Positions 17,488-55,973 of a stretch of DNA of 59,851 nucleotides are shown here, piece after piece. Every line of letters starts with the position of its first letter. Position 1 is the stretch's first letter. The notes under the pieces are model-generated. The model worked only from the letters and a program-made list of their open reading frames with translations, was not told the origin of the DNA and did not search any database. Origin of the DNA: an uncultured Ruminococcus sp. (GTDB taxonomy: Bacteria; Bacillota; Clostridia; Monoglobales; Monoglobaceae). Both the position numbers and the translations under genes were made by a program. Location of the stretch: the NCBI GenBank assembly GCA_902797885.1, contig CADBUP010000012.1, forward strand, positions 1 through 59,851, given 5' to 3'.

Positions 17488-17513
17488 ATATTATTATGAA
17501 GGAGAAGAAACAT

Positions 17514-19376: not shown

Positions 19377-19445
19377 CAGCTGACCGCAGTAAGCGGGTAA
19401 GCGATAAAAGAAAAGTGTGTAATATTTTAAAAGGATGGTGCGACA

Positions 19446-20642: not shown

Positions 20643-20656
20643 GTGGGGTTAAAATA

Positions 20657-23431: not shown

Positions 23432-23463
23432 GAATAAAATTAAATATAAAGGAGTGTCAATTT

Positions 23464-24837: not shown

Positions 24838-24869
24838 TTTTAGCCGTATGGCCGTATGGAGGAGATAAG

Positions 24870-27800
24870 ATGTTAAAACTGAGAGTGTCGAAATGGCTGT
24901 GCATTTTGCTTACGATTTCGGTTCTTGCCGCTGTTCCCGTTATGCCGATTTTTTCCGACGAGGTTAATACCTCGCCGGAAATTCTGAAGAATGCGGACTT
25001 TGAGGCCGAAGGCTTAGACCCGTGGACAGGCTTTGGAGATTACAGCCTGTCTGAGACAAACGCATATTCCGGCGCACGCTGTATTGCGCTGAGCGGAAAT
25101 GGGGAGAGCGGTATAGAACAGTTTGTGACCGGACTTAACCCCGATACCACATATGTTTTGACGGCATGGGGAAAGGTATCGGGAAAGACGAACAATATCT
25201 ATATAGGCGTCAGGGATTTCGGCGGCGAAGATAAGATTGAGTATAAGATTGGCTCATCGGCATATGTTAAGAGAGCCGTTCAGTTTAAAACCGGGGCGGA
25301 CAGCACCTCTGCCGCGGTATATGTGCGGCGTGCGGCGTTTGCGGGCGGCGTGGGTTATGTCGATAAAATGTCTCTTGAAACATTAGATGAATTTCGTAAG
25401 AATGAAGAAGAGGCCGACACTACGGAAGATGATAATGCGAATGTGGGAACCCCCGCAGGAAGCGTGGATTCAGGCCCGATAAAAAATAACGGCTTTGAAG
25501 CGGGAAAGCTTACCTCATGGAATTGTTACGGAAATTTTGAGCTTTCCGAGGAGTCTCCGCATTCGGGTAAGTATAGCGTTAAGTTTGGCGGTGACGGAAA
25601 AACCAGCGGCGTACAACAGGTAATAAAGGGGCTTTATCCCAATACTACCTATACGCTGTCGGCGTACTGTAAGGTCGAAAATCGCGGCGACAAGATCATG
25701 CTCGGCGTTACCGACCACGGTGCGGCACAGAAGGGCTATGACATAGAGGCAACAACATATACCCCGATGTCGTTTAAGTTTACCACAGGTCCGTCAAGCG
25801 ACAGCGCGAAGATATTTGTTTATCGGGGCGAGGATATGGGCGACGGCGCCGCGTATGCGGATGATTTTTCGATTACCGGTCCATTCCAAGAGGTTGATGA
25901 TGTGCCTAATGATTCAATTGAGGATGCAAATAAGACCCCCGAGGAAAAGCTTGACGAAAATGACAGGCTTGAATATATTCTCAATAAATTAGACGAAAAA
26001 GGAATAATAACAAAGACGGGGTTTGATTCCGATAAACAGATAACCAGAGCAGAGGTTCTTGCTATGATTATCAGGACAATAAATATGGAGGAAGCCGCCA
26101 AGGCTCTTGCGGGAAAGACGAGGTTTGACGATGTTCCCGAGGACTACTGGGCGTCGGGGTACATAAACCTTGCGGTCAGAGACGGAATAGCGAACGGAAC
26201 CGGCGAGACTGTCTTTGAACCCGAAGAAAATGTTACACAGGAGCAGATGATAAAGATGATGCTTTGTGCCTTCGGTCATAATGAGGAGGCGGAGGCTGAC
26301 GGAGGATATCCCGACGGATATATGAAGCTTGCACGCGACAGGGGATATGTATACGGCATTGCCGCCGCGCAGGCTGCGCCCATTACAAAGGCGCAGGCGG
26401 CGAGCATCTGTCACTATGCAATTCTGTCGGACGGCGATAGAATTGACAGCCCGAAGCCCGGGGAAATATTCGATATTTTTGACAGCAATAAGATCGAAAA
26501 ATACAAATACCTCGAGGGAACAAGCAACAAGGTTCGGGTTGTGGAAAAGGACGGAGCGAAGGCGCTTAAGATGAACTTCGGAACAGAGATGTATCCATGT
26601 GTAAAGTTTAATATGGGCGATCTCGGTCTTGATACCGACTGGTCTGAATATTCATACCTTGCGTTTGATATTACCAACACATCGACAAAGACGATTCACT
26701 TCGGCATCAGAGTCGATTCCATGGTGACTCAGGAGGACGGAACCGATAAGCTTTCGGTGAGACAGGGAATGCACGGACTCGGTACAGCAGAAAGAATTCT
26801 TTTCTGTATTCCGCTCAAAACTCCGCCTGAGGGGGTTAATTCCGTTCCGATAGGTCAGTCGATTGTGGACTTGTGCGCAAATAACAAGGTGTACCTTGCT
26901 AAAAACGCAACACAGACCATCAATCCTGAAAAGATAGTTGAGTTCCAGATTTTTGAGGCCGGACCGATACAGGAAAACGAGATATATATTCATTCAATAT
27001 CTCTGATTAAGGATGACAAGGCGATGGATGAGCCATATGTTGACCGATTCGGCCAATACACAAATTCGGACTGGAGAGGAAAGCTTTATACTCACTCTGA
27101 GTTTGAAATCCGTAAGAATGAGGAGGAGGCTGAGCTTTCGGCTAACCCAAACCCTTCGGATTGGGATGAATACGGCGGCTATGCCGACGGGCCTCAGCTT
27201 GATGCAACGGGGCATTTCAGAGTTGAGAGATATGGCGGAAAGTGGTGGCTGGTTGATCCTAACGGCAAGCTGTTTTGGTCAAACGGAATAACCTGTCTGA
27301 CAGCTGAACAGGTCGGTACGATAGGCGGCAAGGAAAAGTTTTATGAGTACATACCGACAGACAGCGAGTATATGTCAAAATTCAACTATCTTTGGAGTGA
27401 CGTTAAAAAATACAGTTATTACACCGCGAATCTTTATCGAAAGTACGGTGATGACTATTTAAACCAACACGTAGAGAATACACTTAAACGCTTAAGGTCA
27501 TGGGGTATAAACACGGCGGGGGCGTGGAGCACGGACGAATTTACCAATAGCGGACGTGTGCCCTATACCGCAATATGCGGATTTTCCGATCCGCCGAGAT
27601 TCGGGAAGATAGGAGGCAGCGGATTCGTAGATGTGTTCGACCCGAGAAGCGAAAAGGCGATTGAAAAGGGCGTGAAAACGATTGCTGATAAAAAGAACGA
27701 CCCGATGCTGGTCGGCGTGTTTATCGATAACGAGCTGGGCTTTGCAAGCGAGGAGTCTGACAACGATGGTATGACGCATACTACCTCAATAAAGTTTACA

Positions 27801-28553
27801 AAATCCGCGCTTGGAGTGGACGGCGAGGAGTATGCAATAAAGCAGAAGCTTGTTGAATATTATACCGAGAAGTACGGAACGATTGAAAAACTCAACGGCG
27901 CATGGGGAACCGAGTTTGGAAGCTTTGAAGAGCTTTCCGCGCCCGTTGAGCTGACAAAGGAGCAGGCGGAAAAGGGCAGAGAAGATTTAGAGGAATTTGA
28001 GTTGATGATATATGAGAAGTACTTTGAGATATGCAGAAATGCAGTCAAAAAGGTGATGCCCGATACGCTTTATTTAGGGTCGAGATTTGCGGGATATAAT
28101 GACCTGGCGGTCAGGGCGGCGGCTAAATACTGTGATGTTGTAAGCTTTAACCTCTATACTATAAGACCTGATGATAAGACGGCGGCAGAGCTTGCTCTGA
28201 CGTATGATTTTCCGGTTATAATCGGCGAGTTCCATTTCGGTACGCTTGACAGCGGTATGAGACAGACCGGACTCGGATCGGGCGGAAATCAGCAGGATCG
28301 CGCCGACAGGTATAAGGAATATATGAACAGGGCGATAGCGTCGTCATGGTGCGTCGGTGCGCATTGGTTCCAGTATATCGAACAGCCGTATTTGGGAAGA
28401 GATGACGGAGAGTCCTATAGCATTGGCTTTGTCACCACGACAGATACGCCTGTGCCGCAGCTGGTCAAAGCGGCGAGAGAGGTAGGAGAAGGTATGTATA
28501 AGCGCCGCATAACAACGAAGTGCATCAAAAAAGAGAATGAACAGAAGGAATAG
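24870..28553 (+). CDS. SLH-anchored multidomain glycoside hydrolase, GH50/agarase-like (clan GH-A)
   Basis: The only evident catalytic protein of the locus, 1227 residues. Order: signal peptide (1-30); two CBM4/9-like domains (about 35-170 and 205-335); three SLH-like repeats (about 365-530); a jelly-roll-like region (545-770); and a TIM-barrel hydrolase (about 780-1215). The barrel begins FRVERYGGKWWLVDPNGKLF, as in GH50 beta-agarases. The probable acid/base is Glu955 (FIDNELGF) and the probable nucleophile Glu1120 (IIGEFHFG). Agarose is an unlikely substrate for a gut anaerobe, so another beta-galactoside-type glycan is possible. SLH domains in the middle rather than at an end is unusual. 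The gene ends the locus and is followed by a strong terminator. Confidence 0.82.
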   Translation: MLKLRVSKWLCILLTISVLAAVPVMPIFSDEVNTSPEILKNADFEAEGLDPWTGFGDYSLSETNAYSGARCIALSGNGESGIEQFVTGLNPDTTYVLTAWGKVSGKTNNIYIGVRDFGGEDKIEYKIGSSAYVKRAVQFKTGADSTSAAVYVRRAAFAGGVGYVDKMSLETLDEFRKNEEEADTTEDDNANVGTPAGSVDSGPIKNNGFEAGKLTSWNCYGNFELSEESPHSGKYSVKFGGDGKTSGVQQVIKGLYPNTTYTLSAYCKVENRGDKIMLGVTDHGAAQKGYDIEATTYTPMSFKFTTGPSSDSAKIFVYRGEDMGDGAAYADDFSITGPFQEVDDVPNDSIEDANKTPEEKLDENDRLEYILNKLDEKGIITKTGFDSDKQITRAEVLAMIIRTINMEEAAKALAGKTRFDDVPEDYWASGYINLAVRDGIANGTGETVFEPEENVTQEQMIKMMLCAFGHNEEAEADGGYPDGYMKLARDRGYVYGIAAAQAAPITKAQAASICHYAILSDGDRIDSPKPGEIFDIFDSNKIEKYKYLEGTSNKVRVVEKDGAKALKMNFGTEMYPCVKFNMGDLGLDTDWSEYSYLAFDITNTSTKTIHFGIRVDSMVTQEDGTDKLSVRQGMHGLGTAERILFCIPLKTPPEGVNSVPIGQSIVDLCANNKVYLAKNATQTINPEKIVEFQIFEAGPIQENEIYIHSISLIKDDKAMDEPYVDRFGQYTNSDWRGKLYTHSEFEIRKNEEEAELSANPNPSDWDEYGGYADGPQLDATGHFRVERYGGKWWLVDPNGKLFWSNGITCLTAEQVGTIGGKEKFYEYIPTDSEYMSKFNYLWSDVKKYSYYTANLYRKYGDDYLNQHVENTLKRLRSWGINTAGAWSTDEFTNSGRVPYTAICGFSDPPRFGKIGGSGFVDVFDPRSEKAIEKGVKTIADKKNDPMLVGVFIDNELGFASEESDNDGMTHTTSIKFTKSALGVDGEEYAIKQKLVEYYTEKYGTIEKLNGAWGTEFGSFEELSAPVELTKEQAEKGREDLEEFELMIYEKYFEICRNAVKKVMPDTLYLGSRFAGYNDLAVRAAAKYCDVVSFNLYTIRPDDKTAAELALTYDFPVIIGEFHFGTLDSGMRQTGLGSGGNQQDRADRYKEYMNRAIASSWCVGAHWFQYIEQPYLGRDDGESYSIGFVTTTDTPVPQLVKAAREVGEGMYKRRITTKCIKKENEQKE

Positions 28554-43343: not shown

Positions 43344-44246
43344 ATGCCGAATTTTACTACACCGATTCCGCCGAAGCTGACGGGAAACTCAGCGGAGGAT
43401 ATCGGTAAAATTAAACAGTGGGGAACGGCGCTTGTGGATGAGCTGACCTATTTGTTTAACAATTTGGACAGCGGAAATGTAACGGAGGCAGCCTCGGTTA
43501 AGGCAGAGAACATTGACGCGAGCAACGCGCGGATAAGCAATGCGCAGATTGGAGAGCTTTCGGCCGATAAGTTAAAGGCAGGAAGCATAGACACAGGGGT
43601 TGTTAATGTGCAGGATAAGAACGGAAAGCTGAGTATAAGCGGTTCAAGCATAGTGATAAGCGACGGAAAGAGTGATAGGTTTGTTGCTGAATATGATAAA
43701 CGCAGTAATGCTTTTAGGTTTGTTCTATATAATAAGGATGGCAAACCTACGGTTGGAATAGGGAGTGGCGGCGATGCGGTTTTTAACGGTACGGTAGAGA
43801 GCAGCACAATATATGCGTCTACAATCATAGGAACAGACAGCGCGTCATACCAGAATGAGAACGGCGGAGTCTTTGCGGATATCAACCAAACGGGTATTAA
43901 GATAATGCAGGATAAAAACGGGCGGCAGCAGAAGCTTGGCATGACGGTGGCGAACGACGGAACAGCGTATCTGATTCTCGGGGCGGGCGATGGAAGCGGA
44001 AGGATGACCTTTAACGATGTGACGTATACCAACGGGTCGTTTGTGGTTGAAAAATGCGATAAGTATACAAATATGGGCATAATCGGAGGAAAACCGTTTA
44101 TAACTTTTTGGGACGAAAACGGAGATTTATGGCTGAATGGAACCAAGGTTTATGTAAACGGCAAAAATGTGAACCTTGAACTGTCAAATATCGAAAGTGA
44201 AATTAGCAGGCTTCAAAGCCGCGTAAGCGCGCTTGAGAGCAAATAA
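43344..44246 (+). CDS. Phage tail-fibre / tip-like structural protein
   Basis: A 300-residue protein with an N-terminal PNFTTPIPPKLTGNSAEDI region as found in siphophage tail-tip and fibre proteins. A helical SASNARISNAQIGEL-like triplet region and a beta-rich central part follow (NGTVESSTIYASTIIGTDS, GVFADINQTGIKIM), ending in a coiled coil (LSNIESEISRLQSRVSALES) typical of trimeric fibres. It would recognise a host-cell surface. No chaperone domain or catalytic site is seen. AAGGGAGTG precedes ATG 43344. It is the first gene of the phage-derived segment, which is odd because fibre genes normally lie at the end of the structural region. Confidence 0.7.
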   Translation: MPNFTTPIPPKLTGNSAEDIGKIKQWGTALVDELTYLFNNLDSGNVTEAASVKAENIDASNARISNAQIGELSADKLKAGSIDTGVVNVQDKNGKLSISGSSIVISDGKSDRFVAEYDKRSNAFRFVLYNKDGKPTVGIGSGGDAVFNGTVESSTIYASTIIGTDSASYQNENGGVFADINQTGIKIMQDKNGRQQKLGMTVANDGTAYLILGAGDGSGRMTFNDVTYTNGSFVVEKCDKYTNMGIIGGKPFITFWDENGDLWLNGTKVYVNGKNVNLELSNIESEISRLQSRVSALESK

Positions 44247-44344
44247 AATAACGCGAAAGCTTCTTTCACGTGAGCCTTCGGCGATAAAAAAGCCCGTGCG
44301 AAATTTTCCTTGCTTTGTTTGGAAACGCACATGGACACAATAAA

Positions 44345-44430
44345 CTCTTATCATTTCTTACCCTGCGGATAAGAGAATTTCATTACTATATTATTTATGC
44401 CGACGCAGGGCGGCGGATAAGGAGATTACT
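44345..44430 (+). promoter_or_regulatory. Structured leader of portal gene with 20-base repeat
   Basis: A hairpin CTCTTATC (44345-44352) / GATAAGAG (44368-44375) has a loop containing CCCTGCG (44361-44367). This is complementary to CGCAGGG (44404-44410) inside the repeat TGCCGACGCAGGGCGGCGGA (44398-44417), next to the ribosome binding site GGAG (44421-44424). A loop-leader pseudoknot could control portal translation. Structure is inferred. Confidence 0.5.
44398..44417 (+). repeat. 20-base leader repeat, copy upstream of portal gene
   Basis: TGCCGACGCAGGGCGGCGGA, identical to the minus-strand copy at 39457-39476. It ends a few bases before the portal ribosome binding site. Confidence 0.8.
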
Positions 44431-46062
44431 ATGTTAAATCAATCATATAACGGAAAAATAAAACAGGAGTTTTTTTCAAAGGTAGTCGAGTCTTTTAATA
44501 TGTACAAGGAGCATAAAAAGACTCTTGACAGACGTATAATCGAGAATAATCGCTGGTTTAAAGCGAGGTATAACAACAATAAAATCGAAATTGACGAGCC
44601 GGTGACACCGTACTTATTTAATATTATTGCGAATAAGCACGCCGATGCGATGGATAATTATCCCGAGCCTAACGTGCTTGAACGTGAAGAGAGTGACCGC
44701 GAAACAGCGGAGATGTTTACAAAAATCCTGCCGCTTCAGCTTGAATTGTGCGGATTTAAAAGAACATACAGCCGTGCGTGGTGGTACAAGCTCAAAAACG
44801 GAGCTTCCTGTTATGGGGTATTTTATAACCCGGCTCTGTGCGGAAGCATGGGCGAGATTGATATTAAAAAAATTGATTTGCTCAATATCTTTTGGGAACC
44901 GGGAGTTACCGATATACAGGACAGTAAGTTTTTGTTCATAACGGCTCTGTGCGATAATGATGCACTAAAGGCAAAATATCCGCAGTACGCAGACCGTTTC
45001 AGTGGCTCTGCCGCCCTGGATACAAGAACATATGACGACATGGAAAGCGGAACAAACACAGATATATTAAAGGATAAAAGCCTTGTGGTGGATTGTTACT
45101 ATAAAAAACAGCGCGGTGATACGCATACGGTAGAGCTTGTAAAGTTTTTTGACGATACGATTCTCGATGCGTCAGAGGACCGCGGCGACTGCGGATTGTA
45201 TGATCACGGTATGTATCCGTTTGTTTTTGACGTGCTATATCCCGATGAGGACAGTCCTGTAGGATTCGGAATGGTTGACATAATTAAAAATCCGCAGATG
45301 TATATAGATAAGCTTGACGCGATTATAAGCAAAAATGCAATGATTTCGGGAAAGACAAGATTTATGATAAAAGACAACGGAGGTCTTAATGAATATGAGC
45401 TGACGGATTTGTCAAAAGATATAATTCATTCGGCCGGCTCAGTCGGGGATGACAATATCAGAGAGCTTCAGGCAAAGCCGCTTCATCCGTTCATTATTCA
45501 GCACCGCTCAAACAAGATAAATGAAATCAAAGAGGTGTCGGGAAATCTTGACTTTCAGCAGGGGGACGTTACCGGCGGCGTGACGGCGTATTCCGCTATT
45601 GTGGCGCTTCAGCAGGCAGGCGAAAAGCTGTCGCGCGATATGATAGGCGAGGGGTATGAGGCATACAAGAGAATCATCTACTTCTGTATTGAGCTTATTC
45701 GTCAATTTTATGATGAGCCGCGGTATTACCGCATAGCGGGCGATGACGGCGGATGCGAGTATGTTACTTTTTCAAACGAGAGTCTTAGGGGAGGAGGAAC
45801 ACGGCTTCCGGCTGAATTTGATATTGCGGTCAGCGCGGAAAAAAATAATCCGTACAGCAGGGTGACACAAAATCAAACGCTTACGGATTTATGGAAGATG
45901 GGACTTTTCCATAAGGATACAATACGAGAATCAATCCTTATGCTTGAATGTATGCACTTAGACGGAAAAGAAAAACTGATTGAGGGTCTGCGAAAAATTG
46001 CATCAGAGCAGGACCCTGCCGATAATAACAAGGTTGTCACGGAAGGAAATTCTGAGCGATGA
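44431..46062 (+). CDS. Phage portal protein (P22-like)
   Basis: The dodecameric ring through which DNA enters the phage head. The 543-residue protein shows the portal fold: an N-terminal helical region with NNRWFKARYNNN and PVTPYLFNIIANKHADAM, a wing with LNIFWEPGVTDIQDSKFLF, then YPFVFDVLYPDEDSPVGFGM (stem/clip) and the long crown helices from GVTAYSAIVALQQAGEKLSR. The length and order fit P22/podophage-like portals of Clostridia prophages. Its 3' end overlaps the convergent repressor gene by 60 bases, an arrangement not expected in an intact phage. No capsid or protease gene follows. Confidence 0.82.
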   Translation: MLNQSYNGKIKQEFFSKVVESFNMYKEHKKTLDRRIIENNRWFKARYNNNKIEIDEPVTPYLFNIIANKHADAMDNYPEPNVLEREESDRETAEMFTKILPLQLELCGFKRTYSRAWWYKLKNGASCYGVFYNPALCGSMGEIDIKKIDLLNIFWEPGVTDIQDSKFLFITALCDNDALKAKYPQYADRFSGSAALDTRTYDDMESGTNTDILKDKSLVVDCYYKKQRGDTHTVELVKFFDDTILDASEDRGDCGLYDHGMYPFVFDVLYPDEDSPVGFGMVDIIKNPQMYIDKLDAIISKNAMISGKTRFMIKDNGGLNEYELTDLSKDIIHSAGSVGDDNIRELQAKPLHPFIIQHRSNKINEIKEVSGNLDFQQGDVTGGVTAYSAIVALQQAGEKLSRDMIGEGYEAYKRIIYFCIELIRQFYDEPRYYRIAGDDGGCEYVTFSNESLRGGGTRLPAEFDIAVSAEKNNPYSRVTQNQTLTDLWKMGLFHKDTIRESILMLECMHLDGKEKLIEGLRKIASEQDPADNNKVVTEGNSER

Positions 46063-46701
46063 ATAGTCTGTGTTGACAGCCGTCAGAAGAATATCGGTGC
46101 CGCGATAGTCAAGCCGGCGGCAGTATATCATGCCGTTTAGAATAAACAGACCGATTTCATCTCCTAAGAGCTGAGGAGTGTATTTGATAAATTTAACCTC
46201 GCCTTTGCGAAGCACAGGTTCCATACTGGTATCGGTAATACATACGGCGGCGTCGGCGTTATCGGGGGCATCGATTTCAATTTCAAAGCAGTCCGAGGCA
46301 AGGAAAGGGCTGTCGAAAGCTATCGGTGACAGATGTGTATAAATGGGGAGTCTGCGCCGCGACGAACCTTGACGAAGACGCATTGCGTCATACTCATAGT
46401 TAAGGCAGTTATATACCGCGGCGCGACCGGCATCGTCAAGACTGATTAACTTGCTGATTGCACAGCGGTCAAGAACACGGCGGTTATTGATGCTTTCCGA
46501 CGCAAAGTATTCAGAGATATTGTCAATCCCGTATTTTGCACAGATGCGCAAAAAGGTGTCAATAGATGGCTCTGACTTGCCGGTCTCCCATGAACTGAAG
46601 GTGGACTGGCTTACGCCGAGCCAGCCGTATACGTCACGTTGTGACAATCCTGCGGCTTTACGTGCTTGCTGAAGCTTCTGACATATGTTTTTATTTGCCA
46701 T
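46003..46701 (-). CDS. Phage repressor, XRE helix-turn-helix with S24/LexA-like domain
   Basis: A 232-residue CI-type repressor. An N-terminal XRE domain lies at residues 5-65 (AGLSQRDVYGWLGVSQSTFSSWE), then a linker and a C-terminal S24-like domain (about 140-232) with the serine motif TDTSMEPVL (Ser159). The position of the catalytic lysine reads YCRRL (Arg195), so self-cleavage under DNA damage is probably lost, as in some dimerising repressors. It is divergent from the small zinc-protein gene and has its own promoter at 46829-46857. A palindromic operator candidate at 46883-46899 overlaps the opposing promoter. The gene's 3' end runs 60 bases into the portal gene. Confidence 0.85.
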   Translation of the reverse strand: MANKNICQKLQQARKAAGLSQRDVYGWLGVSQSTFSSWETGKSEPSIDTFLRICAKYGIDNISEYFASESINNRRVLDRCAISKLISLDDAGRAAVYNCLNYEYDAMRLRQGSSRRRLPIYTHLSPIAFDSPFLASDCFEIEIDAPDNADAAVCITDTSMEPVLRKGEVKFIKYTPQLLGDEIGLFILNGMIYCRRLDYRGTDILLTAVNTDYSSLRISFRDNLVIIGRVLL

Positions 46702-46828
46702 AATTTATTCATTCCGTTTCACTATGTGAAGTCGGTATCATATGCCATAAGCCTTACTATAAAAATCAGAGAAATTTGCATACAGATTTCAGTCAAATAA
46801 GATTAATGGCTCTAATAACCGCGATTAT

Positions 46829-46857
46829 ATAATATCATAGTTATAGATATTTGTCAA
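46829..46857 (-). promoter_or_regulatory. Promoter of phage repressor gene
   Basis: On the minus strand TTGACA (46857-46852), a 17-base spacer and TATTAT (46834-46829). The repressor start is about 128 bases downstream. Confidence 0.65.
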
Positions 46858-46882
46858 TACAATATGATATTTTTCGATAAAA

Positions 46883-46915
46883 TGTCATTGACTATGACAT
46901 AATTCGATATATAAT
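46883..46915 (+). promoter_or_regulatory. Rightward phage promoter with palindromic operator
   Basis: TTGACT (46888-46893), a 16-base spacer and TATAAT (46910-46915). The inverted repeat TGTCAT-TGACT-ATGACA at 46883-46899 covers the -35 box, so a bound repressor dimer would block transcription of the downstream phage genes. Confidence 0.65.
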
Positions 46916-46983
46916 ATTAAATATAACCGATATTTCGATATTACTGTCAGGAAAATACAAAAAATGAAAGGAGATGATATAAT

Positions 46984-47181
46984 ATGACACATCCCGACAT
47001 AATTACAGCTGAGATATTCGGTAGTTATCCACCGCAGGACGCAGAAGAACGTTTGGGGGAGTGTATATACTGTGAACAGCCTGTTTATGACGATGGTGAA
47101 GCAGTACAAAGTACGGACGGTTTGTTCTGCAATATGGATTGTTGCTGTGAATACTATGAAATTACAAATATAAATAGATAA
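46984..47181 (+). CDS. Small zinc-ribbon-like phage protein
   Basis: A 65-residue protein with two cysteine clusters, CIYC at about 27-30 and CNMDCCC at about 49-55, flanked by acidic residues. The pattern suggests a small zinc-binding knuckle, as in many early phage proteins. It is preceded by AAAGGAGATG and the rightward phage promoter, and is followed 26 bases later by the ArpU-like gene. Function is unknown. Confidence 0.65.
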   Translation: MTHPDIITAEIFGSYPPQDAEERLGECIYCEQPVYDDGEAVQSTDGLFCNMDCCCEYYEITNINR

Positions 47182-47207
47182 GAGTTAAAACAGAAAGGAT
47201 GTTTAAA

Positions 47208-47591
47208 ATGGTATTAAATACAGTAAAGGAAGTAAAAGAATGGCTCAGGAATATTCCGATTGTTAAGGCTGAACTTGCCTTAAAAATAAAGTTTTATCAA
47301 GAGCTTGAGGAAGAATTCAATAAGGTAGAGAATTTTGAAAAGTCGCTTAAATATTACCGCGGCCAGATAGAGAGTCTTCAGGATAAGATGGAGACGCTTA
47401 TGGAGGATGTCGACAGACTTTTCGGAATCTTGGATGAGAATGAAAGGCTTGTTATGGTGGCGAGATACATAAATCTGATTCGGTGGGACTATATAGAGTT
47501 TCATGTATTCTATAGCAGAAGACAGGCAATCAGGGTTCACGACCATGCCCTTTTGAAGCTTGTGGGTCAGGCGGTAGGTGAACGGGAATGA
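47208..47591 (+). CDS. ArpU/RinA-like phage late transcription regulator (probable)
   Basis: A 127-residue, highly helical protein. The first 85 residues look like a coiled coil (ELEEEFNKVENFEKSLKYY, QDKMETLMEDVDRLFGIL). The C-terminal part LDENERLVMVARYINLIRWD and YSRRQAIRVHDHALLKL resembles sigma-factor region 4 (a helix-turn-helix), as in the DUF1492/ArpU-type late regulators that sit just before terminase genes. ATG 47208 is preferred over 47199 because GAAAGGATG is its ribosome binding site. It overlaps the next gene by 4 bases. Identification rests on pattern and gene order. Confidence 0.65.
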   Translation: MVLNTVKEVKEWLRNIPIVKAELALKIKFYQELEEEFNKVENFEKSLKYYRGQIESLQDKMETLMEDVDRLFGILDENERLVMVARYINLIRWDYIEFHVFYSRRQAIRVHDHALLKLVGQAVGERE

Positions 47592-47809
47592 CGGATAATA
47601 CAGAACTTTTTGACGGCGTATTGACCGAGAACGAAGGGACAGAACCTAAAATCTCGGATAAGGCGTACGACAAGCTTGTTCAGCTTATGTCGTGCGATAA
47701 CGAAAGAGTTGCGCTGGCGGCGGCTAAAGAGATTATGTCAATCTATGAAAAGGAAGATGCGGCCGCAGACGGCGACATAAGTTTAGAGGTTACCATTAAG
47801 GTTATCTGA
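47588..47809 (+). CDS. Small phage protein, probable small terminase subunit
   Basis: A 73-residue acidic protein that starts within the stop of the ArpU-like gene (ATGA) and ends 13 bases before the large terminase gene. It is helical (ISDKAYDKLVQLMSCDNERV, ALAAAKEIMSIYEKE). Position fits a small terminase subunit, but no DNA-binding helix-turn-helix can be recognised, and at 73 residues it is short for that role. Confidence 0.55.
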   Translation: MTDNTELFDGVLTENEGTEPKISDKAYDKLVQLMSCDNERVALAAAKEIMSIYEKEDAAADGDISLEVTIKVI

Positions 47810-47822
47810 CGGAGGGGTAAAA

Positions 47823-49232
47823 ATGAAGAAATTGGGAAAAGAGAAGCTGTACTTAGAGCTTACCAAGACGCAGAAACAGTTTATAGATGCAGAGGCTGAC
47901 GAGGTTTTGTTCGGCGGAGCCGCGGGCGGGGGAAAGTCATACGGACAGCTTGCGGACGCTCTGATTTACGCACTAAAATACCCCAAAAGCCGTCAGCTTA
48001 TACTTAGAAAGACATATCCCGAGCTTGAACATTCGTTGATTCTGGTCTCGCTCGGGTTCTATCCGAGAGCTGTTTGTACGTACAATGCAAGCAGCAGAAA
48101 ATGGAACTTTTTAAACGGTTCTATAATTGAATTCGGCTATTGTGCCGCAAAAACCGATGTACTTAGGTATCAGGGTGCGGAATATGATGTGGTGAGGTTT
48201 GATGAGCTTACTCATTTCACCGAGGACCAATATACATACTTGATTTCGAGAGTGAGGGGCGTAAATCCTTACCCGAAGATGGTTAAGTCAAGCACGAATC
48301 CGGGCGGAGTGGGACATAACTGGGTCAAACACAGGTTTATTGATGGCTTTGAGCCGAATAAGGTTCATACGGATAAAGAGACCGGCGCACGCCGGCTCTT
48401 CATACCGTCATATGTAAATGATAATGTTTTCCTTATGCGTGCCGATGCGGATTATATAAACAGGCTTAAACAGCTTCCAGAGAAGGAGCGAAAGGCGCTT
48501 CTTTGCGGCGAATGGGATATATTTGACGGTCAGGTTTTTGCCGAATGGCGGAATTCGGCATTGGGAAGAAAGACACGAAGATGGTCACATGTGATTGAGC
48601 CGTTTGAGATTCCTAAGGAATGGCGAAGGTACCGCGCCTTTGACTTTGGTTATTCAAAGCCCTTTGCCGTGTCTTGGTATGCAGTTGACGGTGACGGCAG
48701 GGCGTATAATTATCGTGAGCTTTATGGCTGTACGGGTGAGCCGGATGTGGGAATCCGATGGACGGCTCAGAAGATTGCAGATGAGATACGAAAAATAGAA
48801 GAAACCGAGGATTCGGGATTGCACATAACCGGGGTGGCGGACCCTGCCATATGGAATAACACAGGAACCGAGGACGGAAGTATTGCTGATATGATGGAAC
48901 GGAGGGGAGTTTATTTTGATAAGGGAAATCACAACCGCCTTGCCGGAAAGATGCAGGTTCATTATCGGCTCGCATTTGATGAAGAAGGCCTTCCTATGAT
49001 ATATTTTTTTGAAAATTGCAGGAATATTATAAGAACGCTTCCGCAATTGGGCTATGATTCCACCCGGCCGGAGGATGTCGATACCTCTCAGGAGGATCAT
49101 CTCTATGACGCTTTGAAATATTTTCTGATGATGAATCCTATTGGAATGAGACCGTGCAGTAAACCGAAAAAGAAGGAGTTTAATCCTCTTGATACCGAAG
49201 AAATAAATTTGTATCCGAGATTTATAGTCTGA
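47823..49232 (+). CDS. Phage terminase large subunit
   Basis: The DNA-packaging motor. The 469-residue protein has an N-terminal ATPase: Q-motif TKTQKQFIDA, Walker A GGAAGGGKSYG (Lys38), and Walker B YDVVRFDELTHF with Asp127/Glu128. The C-terminal RNase-H-like nuclease starts with FDFGYSKPFAVSWYAVDGDG (Asp274) and has further acidic residues in ITGVADPAIWN and SQEDHLYDALKY. All key residues are in place, so it is not a pseudogene by inspection. GGAGGGG precedes ATG 47823. It is the last gene of the phage segment; a portal gene normally follows, but here host-type sequence follows. Confidence 0.92.
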   Translation: MKKLGKEKLYLELTKTQKQFIDAEADEVLFGGAAGGGKSYGQLADALIYALKYPKSRQLILRKTYPELEHSLILVSLGFYPRAVCTYNASSRKWNFLNGSIIEFGYCAAKTDVLRYQGAEYDVVRFDELTHFTEDQYTYLISRVRGVNPYPKMVKSSTNPGGVGHNWVKHRFIDGFEPNKVHTDKETGARRLFIPSYVNDNVFLMRADADYINRLKQLPEKERKALLCGEWDIFDGQVFAEWRNSALGRKTRRWSHVIEPFEIPKEWRRYRAFDFGYSKPFAVSWYAVDGDGRAYNYRELYGCTGEPDVGIRWTAQKIADEIRKIEETEDSGLHITGVADPAIWNNTGTEDGSIADMMERRGVYFDKGNHNRLAGKMQVHYRLAFDEEGLPMIYFFENCRNIIRTLPQLGYDSTRPEDVDTSQEDHLYDALKYFLMMNPIGMRPCSKPKKKEFNPLDTEEINLYPRFIV

Positions 49233-49359: not shown

Positions 49360-49401
49360 AAAGTATAAACAACCGGGAGATTAAAATAGGAGGATGAAAC
49401 A

Positions 49402-51144
49402 ATGAAAAAATTTTTATCGGGATTAATGGCGGCGGCTATGATAGCTTCAGCAACGCCCTTTGCGTTCGCGGACGGAGTTAAGGAGAGAGTCGCGGTTGGC
49501 TGCGGAACATTGGCCGCGGCATCGGATTGGGCAAGAGAAGAGATAAATGAAGCGGAAGAGTTGGGAATCACAGAAGGTTTAAAGCCGGTTTGGACGGGCG
49601 GAATAACCCGTTCGGATTTCGGCGAGATGGCGTATAATACACTCAGCAGGATTAAAGAAATTCCGTTTATGAAGGTGTCGGAGAATCCTTTCACCGATGT
49701 TATTAACGCAAAGATATTTGCACTTGCCAATATTGGAATTTTAAAAGGTGTGGGCGACCGTATTTATGAGCCCGACGGTATTCTGACCCGTGAAGAGGCG
49801 GCAGAGATTTTAATTCGTATGGCGAAGTATGCGGAGGGTGAAAATTACACACCGCTGAAAGAGGACACAAAGTATGCCGATGACTCGGAAATATCGGATT
49901 GGGCGAGAAATTCGGTCTATGAGATTACCGCACTCGATATTATGCGTGGTACGGGCGAAAACTTTGAACCGAAGAAATGTTATACGTCAGAGCAGTCGGC
50001 GGTGAGTCTTCTTAGGCTATACAACAAGCTGAAAGGCGGTGATAAAGCAGAGGAGACAGAGACATTCGCTGATAAGATGAACGAACAGATGCCGCAGGAC
50101 AAAAACTATATGTTCTCGCCGTTTTCAATCAAAATGGCTCTTGCTATGGCGGCAAACGGCGCAGACGGTGACACTCAAGCCGAAATTTTAAAGGCGATTG
50201 ATATAGACAACCTGGATAAGTATAACGAGAATACGAAGAACACGCTTAAAAATTATTCAAAGTCGGATTTATTGAAGCTTAATGTTTCAAATTCGATTTG
50301 GCTGAATACGGATAATACAAATCAAAAGTTTTCAAAGAAGTTTGAGGACAAGGCGGCCGATGTTTTCGGCGCGGAAGCGGGAAGCGTTACTAACAAGACC
50401 GCGGTAAAAAAAATCAACGGCTGGGTAAACGAAAAGACGTCGGGAAAAATTCCGGAAATTATCACCGAAAAAAACACGGACTTTGCCGCAATGCTGATTA
50501 ACGCTGTATACTTCAAGGGAAGATGGAGAAATCAGTTTGACCCTTCAGAGACAAAGAATGACACCTTTACAGACAGAAATGGAAAGAAGTCTGAAATTCC
50601 GTTTATGAATAAAACACTATGGGCAAAAAGCGGAATCAAAGACGGCGTTCGGGTGGTTGAGCTTCCGTATCAGAATTATGACTATAAATCAGATGACGGA
50701 CAGGCCGAAAAACTTGGTTTTGACATAAGTATGTATCTTATGCAGTCGGATGAGAAGTTTAATGCCGAAACGGTTCTTAAATCAGCAAAGCTCAACTCTG
50801 AATACATTGCGCTGTCGATGCCGAAATTTAAGGTTGAATACAGCACGGGACTGAACGAAATGCTTAAAAAGCTTGGTATAGACAAAGCTTTTGATGAAAG
50901 AGCTGAGTTTAAAAATATGTTTGACAGCGGGAATGCGGCGATTACCGATACGATTCACAAGACTTATATAAATGTTGATGAGGAGGGAACCGAGGCCGCG
51001 GCAGTAACGGCGATTTCAGTAGGAACGACGGCTCTTCCACCCGAGCCGGTTTCGGTTAAGTTTGACAAGCCGTTTACGTTTGTGATAAGGGATAACACGA
51101 GCGGTGATATCCTGTTTATGGGTGAGTACGTGTTTGCGGAATAA
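49402..51144 (+). CDS. S-layer-anchored serpin (SLH domains plus protease inhibitor)
   Basis: A 580-residue exported protein. The signal peptide is residues 1-23 (ATPFAFA), then three SLH repeats at about 35-205 (ITRSDFGEMAYNTLSRI, FTDVINAKIFALANIGILKG, DWARNSVYEITALDIMRG). A full serpin domain follows at about 215-580: NYMFSPFSIKMALAMAANGA, LLKLNVSNSIWLN, AMLINAVYFKGRWRNQF and C-terminal FTFVIRDNTSGDILFMGEY. The reactive-centre hinge is intact (EEGTEAAAVTA, Gly529 at P15), so inhibition by loop insertion is possible. Aligned to antitrypsin, P1-P1' is Thr543-Ala544 before LPPE. Serpins trap serine or cysteine proteases; at the cell surface it could guard wall enzymes. GGAGGATG precedes ATG 49402. 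Confidence 0.88.
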   Translation: MKKFLSGLMAAAMIASATPFAFADGVKERVAVGCGTLAAASDWAREEINEAEELGITEGLKPVWTGGITRSDFGEMAYNTLSRIKEIPFMKVSENPFTDVINAKIFALANIGILKGVGDRIYEPDGILTREEAAEILIRMAKYAEGENYTPLKEDTKYADDSEISDWARNSVYEITALDIMRGTGENFEPKKCYTSEQSAVSLLRLYNKLKGGDKAEETETFADKMNEQMPQDKNYMFSPFSIKMALAMAANGADGDTQAEILKAIDIDNLDKYNENTKNTLKNYSKSDLLKLNVSNSIWLNTDNTNQKFSKKFEDKAADVFGAEAGSVTNKTAVKKINGWVNEKTSGKIPEIITEKNTDFAAMLINAVYFKGRWRNQFDPSETKNDTFTDRNGKKSEIPFMNKTLWAKSGIKDGVRVVELPYQNYDYKSDDGQAEKLGFDISMYLMQSDEKFNAETVLKSAKLNSEYIALSMPKFKVEYSTGLNEMLKKLGIDKAFDERAEFKNMFDSGNAAITDTIHKTYINVDEEGTEAAAVTAISVGTTALPPEPVSVKFDKPFTFVIRDNTSGDILFMGEYVFAE

Positions 51145-51147
51145 ACT

Positions 51148-51180
51148 AAATGAGAGTGACGTATTCTGTCACTCTCATTT
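51148..51180. terminator. Bidirectional terminator
   Basis: AAATGAGAGTGAC pairs perfectly with GTCACTCTCATTT around a 7-base loop. A- and T-rich flanks serve both the serpin gene and the convergent DUF2156 gene, whose stop codon lies inside the hairpin. Confidence 0.85.
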
Positions 51181-52086
51181 TAATGTTGCTACATATTTTT
51201 TAATCATAAAAACGGGATGATAGGACTCCTTTGCCTTTCGCATTCCGGGAATTCCCATATCCTCCTCGCGGTTTACATAGGTATAGTCCTGCCATTCGTG
51301 TTCTAAAAACTGTTGATTTATCATAGTGAATGCCCCCTCACACTCAGGGTCAACGTGTTCAAAATGAATAACAACGGTATCACCGCACAGCGGTTCTCCA
51401 AAGGTAAAGGCAACGAGTTTTCCGCCTACGCGGAGACCTCCGCCGATATAGCCGAGGGATGACCAGCTGTTTAAGAATTCACAGATTGCCTCGCGCTCTT
51501 CGCTAATGCTTTCGGCTTCCCAGCCTTTACCGACCTGCCATTCGTCAAACAGCTTCATACATTCGGCGTTGTTTTCGGGTGTCAGCCGGCAATATTCCCA
51601 GTCGGGATATAGCTTTTTAAATCTGTTTATATGGTTCTTTTTAGAGTGAAACTTCTTTCCGGCGAGGTTTGTGAGCTCGTCAATTCTATAAACATAGTCA
51701 AAGTTGTTTCTGTCCTCGGTTATGATAAAATTATCCGGGAATTCTTCAACAAGCATGTTCATCGTATTTTCGTCATACAGATGAATGAGCGGCTCGTTAC
51801 CGCTCTCTTTAAAGAAATCCAAAAGTTCATCTATAAAATGCTTTATACTTCGGGTTGTTCCGTCGGGGTTTTCAAATCCGATAGGAAAGCTCGCGCTTCG
51901 CGGTCCGTCGGTGTGTTTCGGCAGGATGCAAAGCATATCGTTGATGATGGCATACTTCATATCATAACTCTTTCGCCACATATAGAGATAAGAAAACGAG
52001 AATTCCGAGTTCCTGCTCTTTCTTCGGCGCAGAAATTCGTTGATGAACTCCTTTTTATCGAGAGTAATATCGTTTAATTCCAGCAT
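51175..52086 (-). CDS. DUF2156 / acyltransferase-like (GNAT) protein
   Basis: A 303-residue cytoplasmic protein of the DUF2156 family, related to the catalytic domain of lysylphosphatidylglycerol synthase and to FemX-like GNAT folds. Visible segments are FSFSYLYMWRKSY, LAGKKFHSKKNHINRFKKLY and the acceptor-domain GYIGGGLRVGGKLVAFTFGE with the C-terminal WQDYTYVNREEDMGIPGMRKAK. The lipid-flipping membrane part of MprF is missing. It may modify a lipid, peptide or RNA end with an amino acid, but no substrate is known from sequence. It lies 8 bases downstream of the radical SAM gene in the same minus-strand unit. Confidence 0.75.
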   Translation of the reverse strand: MLELNDITLDKKEFINEFLRRRKSRNSEFSFSYLYMWRKSYDMKYAIINDMLCILPKHTDGPRSASFPIGFENPDGTTRSIKHFIDELLDFFKESGNEPLIHLYDENTMNMLVEEFPDNFIITEDRNNFDYVYRIDELTNLAGKKFHSKKNHINRFKKLYPDWEYCRLTPENNAECMKLFDEWQVGKGWEAESISEEREAICEFLNSWSSLGYIGGGLRVGGKLVAFTFGEPLCGDTVVIHFEHVDPECEGAFTMINQQFLEHEWQDYTYVNREEDMGIPGMRKAKESYHPVFMIKKYVATLK

Positions 52087-52094
52087 AAATCCTC

Positions 52095-52697
52095 CTATTT
52101 AATAAATTCGCGGACGCGGAAGGTAACACCGCAGTCCTCCGCAATTTTGCGGCATTGCTCAATTTCCTCGGGTTTCATTATATCCACAACGGAGAGCACT
52201 ACCTCCGGTACGTGCCGCTTCGCGAGTCTTGCAAATTCCAAAAGACCGGTATATGCTTCTTCGCCGAACTCGCTTTTACAGAGCTTCTGATATTTTTCGG
52301 CGTTTTCGGCGTTAAGACTGATTGAAACACAATCTATTATCCCTTCAAGCTGCGGCGTTATATCCTTCTTATATATCATATTCGCCTGACCGTTTGTGTT
52401 AATGCGGATTTTAATATCCGGATGATTTTTCTTGAGCCATTTTGCGATTTCTATAACAACATCGGCTCTCATCATCGGTTCGCCATAGCCGCAAAAAACA
52501 ACAGCGTCATATTCCGAAAGGTCACGCCTTTTAAAATCGGTTTTGATTTCATCAATGGTCGGTTCGCGGTCAAGCCAAAGGTTGTCCTTTCCGTTTACAG
52601 TATCATGTTTGTTTCTCACACAGAAAGTACAAGCGTTGCTGCAGCGGTTTGTGATGTTTACATATAATGAGCTTCCGAGTTCATATGTTATCGTCAT
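52095..52697 (-). CDS. TatD-associated radical SAM protein
   Basis: A 200-residue radical SAM enzyme of the short TatD-associated type. The 4Fe-4S cluster motif is CSNACTFC, followed by VRNKHDTVNG. The SAM-binding GGE-like motif is YGEPMMRADV, and later strands are IRINTNGQ and CVSISLNAE. The partner in the family name, tatD, lies 2.5 kb away at 55209, on the other strand. The reaction is unknown. The family is small and has no SPASM or other accessory domain. GGTGAC precedes ATG 52697. Confidence 0.82.
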   Translation of the reverse strand: MTITYELGSSLYVNITNRCSNACTFCVRNKHDTVNGKDNLWLDREPTIDEIKTDFKRRDLSEYDAVVFCGYGEPMMRADVVIEIAKWLKKNHPDIKIRINTNGQANMIYKKDITPQLEGIIDCVSISLNAENAEKYQKLCKSEFGEEAYTGLLEFARLAKRHVPEVVLSVVDIMKPEEIEQCRKIAEDCGVTFRVREFIK

Positions 52698-52763
52698 TTA
52701 TGTCACCTCTTAATAATATTTTAACATATTATATCCAAATTGTCAAAAAACAGACCGAAATAT

Positions 52764-53204
52764 CTACAGACTTTCGATTTCCATAATCTTTTCGACACGG
52801 CGTGAATGCCTGCCGCCGAGATGCGTCTGGCCGAGATATGCCTTGACTATTTCGAGCGCGAGGTCAGGACCGGTGATTCGTTCGCCAAGGCAGATAATCT
52901 GTGCGTCGTTATGCTGCTTCGCCATTTTTGCGCTATATGTATCGGTGACGTGTGCCGCACGGATTCCGCGTACCTTGTTTGCGGCTATACTCATTCCTAT
53001 GCCTGTTCCGCAAATCAGGATTCCGCAGTCAAAATCCTCGTCTCTTACCGCAAGGCTGACGGTTTTGGCAATATCGGGATAGTCCACCGATTCGGGGGTG
53101 TCTGTTCCGAAATCCTTGACTTCAAAACCGTTTTCGGTCAGATATTCCTTGATATACGCCTTGTGATTGATGCCGCCGTGGTCGCTTCCTATTGCTATTC
53201 TCAT
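52764..53204 (-). CDS. rpiB: Ribose-5-phosphate isomerase B
   Basis: Interconverts ribose 5-phosphate and ribulose 5-phosphate. The 146-residue length is normal. The N-terminus GSDHGGINHKAYIKEYL and the catalytic region DCGILICGTGIGMSIAANKV (catalytic Cys) are typical, as are the conserved HNDAQIICLGER and GRHSRRV near the C-terminus. GGAG precedes ATG 53204. Some relatives act on allose or galactose 6-phosphate, which cannot be excluded. Confidence 0.9.
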   Translation of the reverse strand: MRIAIGSDHGGINHKAYIKEYLTENGFEVKDFGTDTPESVDYPDIAKTVSLAVRDEDFDCGILICGTGIGMSIAANKVRGIRAAHVTDTYSAKMAKQHNDAQIICLGERITGPDLALEIVKAYLGQTHLGGRHSRRVEKIMEIESL

Positions 53205-53317
53205 AATTTATCGCTCCTTTGGGCGTGGCGCCCTAAATTCTTCTCTTGTTACATAATATATCAAACATTAACAAAAAAATCAACCCAAACAGAGCCAAAA
53301 ATTCTTTAATATTATAG

Positions 53318-53346
53318 TTGTATTTGGACAAGTTTAATAGTATAAT
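53318..53346 (+). promoter_or_regulatory. Sigma-A promoter for pgcA
   Basis: TTGTAT (53318-53323), a 17-base spacer and TATAAT (53341-53346), about 95 bases before the pgcA start. Confidence 0.65.
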
Positions 53347-53439
53347 ATAAGTGCAATAATAAAAAGCAATATTACAGCCTGAAAAAAGGACTGTGTTTAC
53401 CGAAAACAAATTTACTTGACTTTATTGGAGGTATTAATA

Positions 53440-55161
53440 ATGGATTATAAGAAGGAATATCAGAGATGGCTTGATAATGCCGATGCGGAGACCGTAGCTG
53501 AGCTTAACGGAATTAAAGATGATGAGAAGGAAATCGAAGAACGTTTTTATAAGAACCTTGAATTCGGAACGGCCGGTCTGCGCGGAATAATCGGCGCGGG
53601 TCCCAATCGTATGAACTCATATGTGGTGGGCCAGGCGACTCAGGGACTTGCAAACCAGCTTATTAAGACGAACCCCGCGGGAACGGAGCTTAGCGTTGCT
53701 ATCGCATATGACAGCCGTATTAAGTCTGACGAATTCGCAAAGACATCAGCCGCGATACTTGCGGCAAACGGAATTAAGGTATATCTGTTCGAAGAATTAA
53801 AACCGGTGCCTGAGCTTTCGTTTACCGTTCGTTATAAAAAGGCGACGGCGGGAATTGTTATAACGGCAAGTCATAACCCGGCGAAGTATAACGGATATAA
53901 GGTTTATGGCGCTGACGGTGCACAGCTGAACCCTGAGCTTGCGGCGGTTGTGCTTGAAGAAATCGAGAAGACAGATATTTTCACGGGGGTTAAGACCTGT
54001 GACTTTGATAAGGCTGTTGCCGAAGGCACTATTGTAATGATTGGCGATGAGGTAGAGGAGGCATATCTCGATTGCGTTCAGGCACAGTGTATAAATCCCG
54101 AGCTTGTCAGAGAAAAGGGCGACACACTTAAATTTGTATACACACCGTTTCACGGAACAGGAAACAAGCCCGTCCGCAAGATTTTAAAGAGGATTGGCTT
54201 TGATAACGTCGTCGTGGTAAAGGAACAGGAAATGCCTGACGGAAGATTTCCGACCGTTAAGTCGCCTAACCCCGAGAATAAAGAGGGCTTTAAGCTTGCC
54301 ATCGGCTACGCTAAGGAATGCGGCGCGGATTTGATTATAGGAACGGATCCGGATGCGGACCGCGTCGGAATCATAGTTAAAAATAAAGAGGGCGAGTATG
54401 TAAACTTTACCGGAAACCAGGTAGGCGCTCTGCTTTCCGAATACATTCTGTCATCTCTTAAAGAGCGGGGAGAGCTTCCGAAGGACGGATATATAGTAAA
54501 GACTATAGTTACCACCAACCTTGTTAAGGCAATCTGTTCCGCTTACGGCGTTGAGATGAAGGAGGTTCTGACCGGCTTTAAGTTTATAGGCGAGAAGATT
54601 AAAGAGTCAGAGCAAACAGGTGTCGGAACATATCTTTTCGGATTTGAAGAGAGCTACGGTTATCTTAAGGGAACATATGCACGCGATAAGGATGCGGTTG
54701 TTGCGACAATGCTTATCGCAGAGATGACGCTTTATTATCGCGAAAAGGGAATCACCCTTTCGGAACAGATGGAGAATATCTATAAAAAATACGGCTATTA
54801 CGTTGAGTATGTTGAATCCGTTGTTATGGAGGGTATGGACGGAAGTGCAAAAATTTCCGGAATTATGGATAACCTTCGCGAGAATACGCCGCAGAGTGTT
54901 GCGGGAAAGAAGGTTGTGGCTGTGCGTGATTATGAGACATCGGTTCGTACCGAACTTGAAAGCGGCAAGAAGGAGGAAATTCTCCTTCCTAAGTCAAATG
55001 TGATTTACCTTGAGCTTGAAGATGGCAATAACTTTGTTGTCCGCCCTTCGGGAACCGAGCCTAAAATTAAGCTTTATTGTCTGATGCGCGGAGACAGCAA
55101 GACCGAGGCAGAGGCTCTTGTTGAGGCTGTCAAGGCGGATATTAAAAATATTGTAAAATAG
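53440..55161 (+). CDS. pgcA: Phosphoglucomutase/phosphomannomutase, PgcA-type
   Basis: Interconverts hexose 1- and 6-phosphates, feeding UDP-glucose or GDP-mannose synthesis and helping enter monosaccharides from the carbohydrate locus. The 573-residue protein has the four domains of the alpha-D-phosphohexomutase family: GTAGLRGIIGAGPNRMN, the phosphoserine loop ITASHNPAKYNGYKVYG, the metal loop GTDPDADRVGIIV, the sugar loop GFEESYGYLKG and the C-terminal phosphate-binding RPSGTEPKIKLY. ATG 53440 is preferred over a TTG at 53416 because GGAGG lies 8 bases before it. Confidence 0.93.
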   Translation: MDYKKEYQRWLDNADAETVAELNGIKDDEKEIEERFYKNLEFGTAGLRGIIGAGPNRMNSYVVGQATQGLANQLIKTNPAGTELSVAIAYDSRIKSDEFAKTSAAILAANGIKVYLFEELKPVPELSFTVRYKKATAGIVITASHNPAKYNGYKVYGADGAQLNPELAAVVLEEIEKTDIFTGVKTCDFDKAVAEGTIVMIGDEVEEAYLDCVQAQCINPELVREKGDTLKFVYTPFHGTGNKPVRKILKRIGFDNVVVVKEQEMPDGRFPTVKSPNPENKEGFKLAIGYAKECGADLIIGTDPDADRVGIIVKNKEGEYVNFTGNQVGALLSEYILSSLKERGELPKDGYIVKTIVTTNLVKAICSAYGVEMKEVLTGFKFIGEKIKESEQTGVGTYLFGFEESYGYLKGTYARDKDAVVATMLIAEMTLYYREKGITLSEQMENIYKKYGYYVEYVESVVMEGMDGSAKISGIMDNLRENTPQSVAGKKVVAVRDYETSVRTELESGKKEEILLPKSNVIYLELEDGNNFVVRPSGTEPKIKLYCLMRGDSKTEAEALVEAVKADIKNIVK

Positions 55162-55208
55162 ACGGTGTACTTTATTTATAGAAGAGATAAGAAAAGGACA
55201 GAAGGATT

Positions 55209-55973
55209 ATGCTATTTGACACACACGCTCATTTTGACGATGAGCAGTTTGATAAAGACCGCGACGAGGTTTTAAAAAGCCTGAAAAACTATGGCGTAAC
55301 AAATATAACAAACATAGGTTCAAGTATGCAGACGTCAAGAAGTTCGGCGGAACTTGCCGATAAATATGATTTTGTGTATGCTTCGGTTGGGGTTCACCCG
55401 AGTGAGACGGGCGGTCTGACAGAATCGGATATTGAAGAGATTAAGGCTCTCGCACAAAAGCCAAAGGTTCGTGCAATCGGCGAGATTGGACTTGATTATC
55501 ACTATCCGGATGATGTTCCGCCGGAGATACAAAAGAAATGGTTTATACGTCAGCTTGAACTTGCACAGGAGATAAATATGCCGGTCGTTATTCACGATAG
55601 GGATTCAAAGGGCGAGTGCCTTGAAATCCTAAAAGAAAAGAAGATTTCAAACGGTGTTGTACACTGCTTTTCGGGCAGCGCGGAAACCGCAAAGGAAATA
55701 TTAAGGTTGGGTATGATGATTTCTTTCACCGGGGTTTTGACTTTTAAAAATGCAAGGCGCGCCGTTCAGGCATGCGAGGTGATTCCGCTTGACAGGCTGA
55801 TGATAGAGACTGACTGTCCTTATATGGCGCCCGAACCGCATCGCGGAGAACGGAATTTCAGCGGTTATGTGGAATTTGTTGCACGGAAGATGGCGGAGAT
55901 AAAAGGCGTTTCTTATGAAGAAATATGCGAAATAACGACGAGAAACGCCAAAAGGTTTTACGGAGTTAAATAA
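55209..55973 (+). CDS. tatD: TatD-family deoxyribonuclease
   Basis: A metal-dependent nuclease of the amidohydrolase fold, 254 residues, with DTHAHFDDEQFD at the N-terminus, the family motifs IGEIGLDYHY and FIRQLELAQEINMPVVIHDRD, VVHCFSG, and the C-terminal ETDCPYMAPEPHRGERN. TatD enzymes degrade DNA and are also linked to twin-arginine-secretion quality control. AGGACAGAAGG precedes ATG 55209, 47 bases after pgcA. A strong terminator follows. Confidence 0.9.
   Translation: MLFDTHAHFDDEQFDKDRDEVLKSLKNYGVTNITNIGSSMQTSRSSAELADKYDFVYASVGVHPSETGGLTESDIEEIKALAQKPKVRAIGEIGLDYHYPDDVPPEIQKKWFIRQLELAQEINMPVVIHDRDSKGECLEILKEKKISNGVVHCFSGSAETAKEILRLGMMISFTGVLTFKNARRAVQACEVIPLDRLMIETDCPYMAPEPHRGERNFSGYVEFVARKMAEIKGVSYEEICEITTRNAKRFYGVK

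Follow-up and report, generated by a model that had tools for sequence, protein, structure and literature searches.

What serpins do in prokaryotes is still described as enigmatic (PMC8233489). Surface-tethered members are already known in a dockerin-bearing, cellulosomal form, for which two papers cite PinA of Clostridium thermocellum as a reported inhibitor of subtilisin-like proteases and give the proposal that cellulosomal serpins protect surface complexes by inhibiting such enzymes (PMC5301203, PMC12484212). Eubacterium siraeum makes siropins 1 and 2, which inhibit human neutrophil elastase and proteinase 3; they are stand-alone proteins of 44-48 kDa, and SLH is not mentioned in the report describing them (PMC5127057). 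SLH domains with solved structures include those of Sap (6bt4, 3pyw) and SpaA (6cwc series), which are S-layer proteins and not inhibitors. In the literature searched, which leaves most subscription journals outside its coverage, no paper describing SLH-serpins was found; combining SLH or S-layer with serpin led only to papers on cellulosomes or on unrelated subjects, and combining Monoglobus with SLH led to none.

The window analyzed here, the whole 59,851-nucleotide stretch of DNA from a member of the Monoglobaceae, encodes a protein in which a Sec-type signal peptide is followed by three N-terminal SLH modules and a C-terminal serpin (Table 1). Like PinA and the Doc-Serpin of Ruminococcus flavefaciens, it would combine a secreted serpin with a module that places it on a surface complex; those two, however, are held by a dockerin through cohesin scaffoldins, whereas the window protein carries SLH. 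The SLH-serpin is the direct-anchor counterpart of the cellulosomal dockerin-serpins and, though little described, extends the known theme of surface-tethered serpins.

The open reading frame has exactly the coordinates given in the preliminary description. Its signal peptide ends in AFA and is probably cut after A23. An intact frame, a ribosome-binding site and a conserved hinge rule out a pseudogene, and comparison of one close pair of relatives indicates purifying selection (dN 0.044, dS 0.22). The hairpin that separates the gene from its convergent neighbor scored in a scan as terminator-like on the minus strand, for the gene at 51175-52086; on the plus strand a T-run, ATTTTAA, lies 3' of the stem (by eye only).

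Table 1. Features of the SLH-serpin gene and its product (window coordinates; aa, amino acids)
Feature	Position	Strand	Basis or remark
SLH-serpin gene, 580 aa	49402..51144	+	ORF list and Pfam
Ribosome-binding site AGGAGG	49388..49393	+	8 nt 5' of ATG; read in sequence
Sec signal peptide MKKFLSGLMAAAMIASATPFAFA	49402..49470	+	read from sequence; helix 2-16 in model
SLH module 1, ~aa 41-85	49522..49656	+	helices 42-53 and 70-84 in model; weak local HMM match
SLH module 2, ~aa 97-148	49690..49845	+	model and local HMM
SLH module 3, ~aa 160-211	49879..50034	+	Pfam best stretch 158-192; model and local HMM
Serpin domain, aa 220-578	50059..51135	+	Pfam; VIA-align Z 42.3 over model residues 219-579
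Reactive-center loop, aa 527-549	50980..51048	+	low pLDDT at 538-549
Inhibitory hinge P17-P8 EEGTEAAAVT, aa 527-536	50980..51009	+	sequence and relatives' alignment
Canonical P1-P1' codons, Thr543-Ala544	51028..51033	+	sequence
13-bp hairpin between convergent genes	51148..51180	.	scan, and sequence by eye

Three SLH repeats had been claimed for this protein from its sequence, and that number is borne out. Pfam (PF00395, E 3.6e-10, 40.1 bits against a cut-off of 20.8) resolves two of them and misses the first in order, while AlphaFold models (mean pLDDT 83.9 for the full protein, 81.6 for residues 1-220) contain three two-helix modules, the first resembling the other two. Residues 39-216 of a model of the SLH region alone align with the SLH trimers of Sap and SpaA (6bt4, 3pyw and the SpaA series; Z 16-19), reaching Z 19.4 and an rmsd of 2.6 over 158 residues with 6bt4, the Sap domain whose structure includes a pyruvylated wall-polymer unit; below these the ranking drops to one S-layer cytochrome at Z 10.2 and then to Z 2.2. 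The Pfam score and the model matches to 6bt4 and 3pyw agree with a three-pronged trimer. In SLH proteins, entry into the S-layer depends on the cationic residue of the ITRAE motif (PMC3297441), and against Sap and SpaA the window protein keeps two of three: the arginine is present in the first module (ITRSD, aa 68-72) and the second (LTREE, aa 128-132) but absent from the degenerate third (YTSEQ, aa 194-198). What the window protein shares with Sap and SpaA is the three-module fold, here joined to a serpin and with ligand binding predicted.

The serpin domain is full length, with a match to PF00079 (E 2.4e-85) that spans residues 222-577 and profile positions 6-368 of 370. Its model superimposes on the solved serpin 3nda at Z 42.3 and an rmsd of 2.0 over 333 residues, and Foldseek matches it to conserpin at E 6.8e-29. 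Conserpin and tengpin are among the closest solved serpins, at approximately 29-34% identity, and unlike the window protein their solved constructs have no SLH anchor. The hinge of inhibitory serpins has the consensus ExGTEAAAA at P17-P9 (quoted in PMC8233489); the corresponding EEGTEAAAV departs from it only at P9, by a conservative substitution that many relatives also have, and the siropins, which are gut Clostridium serpins, have the same kind of Gly/Ala-rich hinge (PMC5127057). The early reading of an intact serpin with an inhibitory hinge is thereby confirmed.

Read from the hinge, the loop is EEGTEAAAVTAISVGTT followed by ALPPE. Because the hinge glutamate E527 occupies P17, the canonical P1-P1' pair is Thr543-Ala544, so the Thr-Ala site proposed earlier is right as a canonical position; the bond that is cut need not be this one, since in the siropins elastase and proteinase 3 cut after Val at P3 or P6 (PMC5127057). 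The window serpin has Val at P4 and P9. P1 is a small residue (S, T, G or A) in 31 of the 34 scorable SLH-serpins and P1' is small in 33, but stand-alone, SLH, CuAO and dockerin serpins all usually have a small P1; it is therefore not special to the clade and does not identify a target, although it would point to elastase-like or subtilisin-like proteases generally. A loop that diverges beyond the hinge could also be read as that of a non-inhibitory serpin or a substrate bait, the domain then having a structural or binding role at the cell surface. We consider this improbable, given that P17-P8 is conserved in nearly all relatives, which is unexpected of a non-inhibitory serpin, and that the siropins inhibit elastase and proteinase 3 with a stoichiometry near 1 (PMC5127057).

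Anchoring of such a protein is plausible because the host genome (2.58 Mb, 98% complete) has 129 SLH matches in approximately 60 open frames (frames counted by hand from the match list) and one gene for a CsaB-type pyruvyl transferase (PS_pyruv_trans, E 2.5e-43). This transferase is joined to a GT4 glycosyltransferase in one protein of 763 aa (L016:265-2556). The SLH score of the serpin, at 40 bits, is low beside the 100 bits of a neighboring SLH protein. Wall anchoring is nonetheless likely, and the predicted fixing of an inhibitory serpin to the cell surface has good support from the sequence, the modeled structure and the genome context together. Elsewhere in the window, at 17496-28553, lie three more SLH proteins, two with CBM4_9 and one of those with a GH42-type domain; surface proteins of this kind are ones that such a serpin could shield.

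The combination of SLH and serpin is not confined to this contig. An alignment query retrieved 590 relatives, where a single-sequence query in a first scan of named genomes had given no match. Serpins are present in 168 of 393 sampled Clostridia genomes, and domain scans of long frames place SLH-serpins in at least 24 of the 393, under 12 family codes. Together with the E-values, the same architecture in so many genomes excludes chance, and with the folds it rules out an annotation artifact; recurrence across at least 12 related bacterial families marks the design as real. The preliminary description had suggested a search for SLH plus serpin architectures, and the outcome corrects the rarity that it implied, which was wrong in degree: the SLH form is common in Clostridia and the dockerin form was already known. 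Among the matches listed are carriers named as Candidatus Monoglobus merdigallinarum, Oscillospiraceae bacteria and animal-gut MAGs, CuAO_N1-serpins from other genomes, and dockerin-serpins from one family (f54). In the window's own family (code f1), the protein encoded at L007 is identical to that of L033, and the protein of L097 to that of L021, a Candidatus Monoglobus record, which links the code to Monoglobaceae. RefSeq, which assigns Monoglobus to the Monoglobales within Clostridia, labels an entry from Monoglobus pectinilyticus (WP_320690919.1) as 'serpin family protein'. Several individual architectures were also recorded. A sheep duodenum MAG has a tandem of three SLH-serpins with differing reactive loops (L032:2037-7813), and one chain elsewhere consists of leucine-rich repeats, a dockerin and a serpin (L142:993-3698). 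At least three proteins have a solute-binding domain of the periplasmic-binding type (PBP_like_2 or SBP_bac_3), SLH and a serpin in one chain (L147:139-2961, L153:139-2457 and L163:798-3668), which may tie the binding of a ligand to the trapping of a protease.

In a quick serpin-domain tree, built without bootstrap, all SLH and CuAO serpins and a few relatives in which no anchor was recognized fall together on one side of a branch (support 99, 47 rows), a side made up of Clostridia alone. Dockerin-bearing and stand-alone serpins are placed elsewhere, apart from this clade; with its serpin domain in another clade than theirs and no dockerin in the Pfam scan, the window protein was rejected as a dockerin serpin. 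Some clade members have a Cu-amine-oxidase-N1 module in place of SLH, or an added solute-binding domain. The SLH character changes six times on the tree, which indicates several rounds of gain, loss or replacement of the anchor, unless degenerate SLH modules were missed, as in Agathobaculum. A tentative reading of this pattern, and one that we hold to be less probable than otherwise, is that the Clostridia possess a dedicated serpin lineage, tethered to the envelope and partly passed on by horizontal transfer between gut species, that would act as a general shield of SLH-type surfaces against proteolysis; the exchangeable anchors of this lineage would, just as tentatively, be the three-module SLH, CuAO_N1, or a solute-binding domain with SLH.

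The window protein itself falls in a four-member group (support 96) with copies from another family (f16), at 64% identity to L011, and apart from the copies of its own family; a tree that holds the Monoglobaceae copies together was rejected (AU p 9.7e-5). Three congeners have the flank at 51175-55973 in the same order with no serpin at the site, and a search of four congeners, of which three are approximately 80% complete, likewise turned up no serpin, from which the function would appear to be dispensable in the genus. Given the grouping with copies of another family and the failure to find the gene in congeners, horizontal acquisition would be the simplest account. No conserved gene neighborhood was seen, the neighbors differing in the nearest relatives.

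Upstream of the serpin, at 43344-49232, the window contains a prophage remnant with genes for a tail-like protein, a P22-type portal, a phrog_36 regulator and a terminase large subunit, the portal preceding the terminase in an unusual order, and with a CI-like S24 repressor on the other strand; no integrase was recognized among its scanned genes. The serpin could accordingly be seen as a lysogenic conversion gene that arrived with this prophage and serves it, as its position directly downstream of portal, terminase and repressor-like genes, its absence from the matching site in three congeners and a tree position that implies transfer would allow. A viral contig (L175) likewise has a serpin of the anchored type adjoining an integrase-like gene. 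The closest relatives (L173, L174), however, lie among chromosomal genes with no phage domain in the scanned neighbors, 50,697 phage records yielded only two distant serpins (30-32% identity), and the phage block is not bounded by any long direct repeat. With chromosomal nearest relatives and almost no serpins in phage records, phage cargo is a minor rival, and a very improbable one. On the viral contig, the N-terminal region of the serpin (L175:1-3489) resembles CuAO-type modules by eye, and XRE-like and ImmA-like genes lie beyond the serpin and the integrase-like gene.

Taken as a whole, we regard as reasonably probable a model in which the protein is a Sec-exported, SLH-anchored suicide inhibitor that traps proteases at the wall and shields surface enzymes. 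After export by Sec, the three SLH modules would bind pyruvylated secondary cell wall polymer non-covalently and hold the inhibitor outside the cell. An elastase-like or subtilisin-like serine protease would cut the loop near Thr543-Ala544 or at Val540-Gly541, and the cut loop would insert into sheet A, leaving the protease trapped at the wall as a covalent complex. The likely benefit would be to spare approximately 60 surface proteins with SLH anchors, some of which act on glycans, from host, competitor or stray own proteases. Protection of wall or surface enzymes, as the preliminary description had it, is plausible by analogy, the shield proposed for cellulosomal serpins providing the precedent.

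As to which protease is trapped, an outside enzyme is the better guess, and the main rival is the cell's own surface subtilase. A search of the host genome matched one S8 subtilase (L098, 966 aa) and one HtrA-like protease, and the former could be the main target, the serpin being a housekeeping brake that confines its activity. The subtilase (L098:682-3582), the sole such match in the genome, has an N-terminal Cu-amine-oxidase-N1 domain in addition to its S8 domain. Cu-amine-oxidase-N1 also takes the place of SLH in some sister serpins, so that the subtilase and its putative inhibitor may be located together in the envelope. S8 proteases occur in 22 of the 26 genomes that carry SLH or CuAO serpins and in 239 of the remaining 367, a borderline association (Fisher p 0.052) uncorrected for relatedness. 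The four anchored-serpin genomes with no S8 match indicate that an own subtilase is not required, and it was rejected as an obligate partner; moreover, serpin-free relatives in the family have two to six S8 matches each. Regulation of the cell's own subtilase therefore seems rather unlikely as the main function, and trapping of an outside protease is preferred.

A clade of wall-fixed inhibitors narrows the question of serpin function in prokaryotes to proteases with access to the cell surface, and it offers a contrast with the stand-alone and cellulosomal serpins. If the envelope-tethered lineage is as outlined above, chains that combine a solute-binding domain with SLH and a serpin might connect the sensing of ligands with the trapping of proteases. 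Since many of the hosts are gut Clostridia, and since siropins act on human elastase and proteinase 3, it can be hypothesized that surface-bound inhibitors of this kind could aid survival in the inflamed gut.
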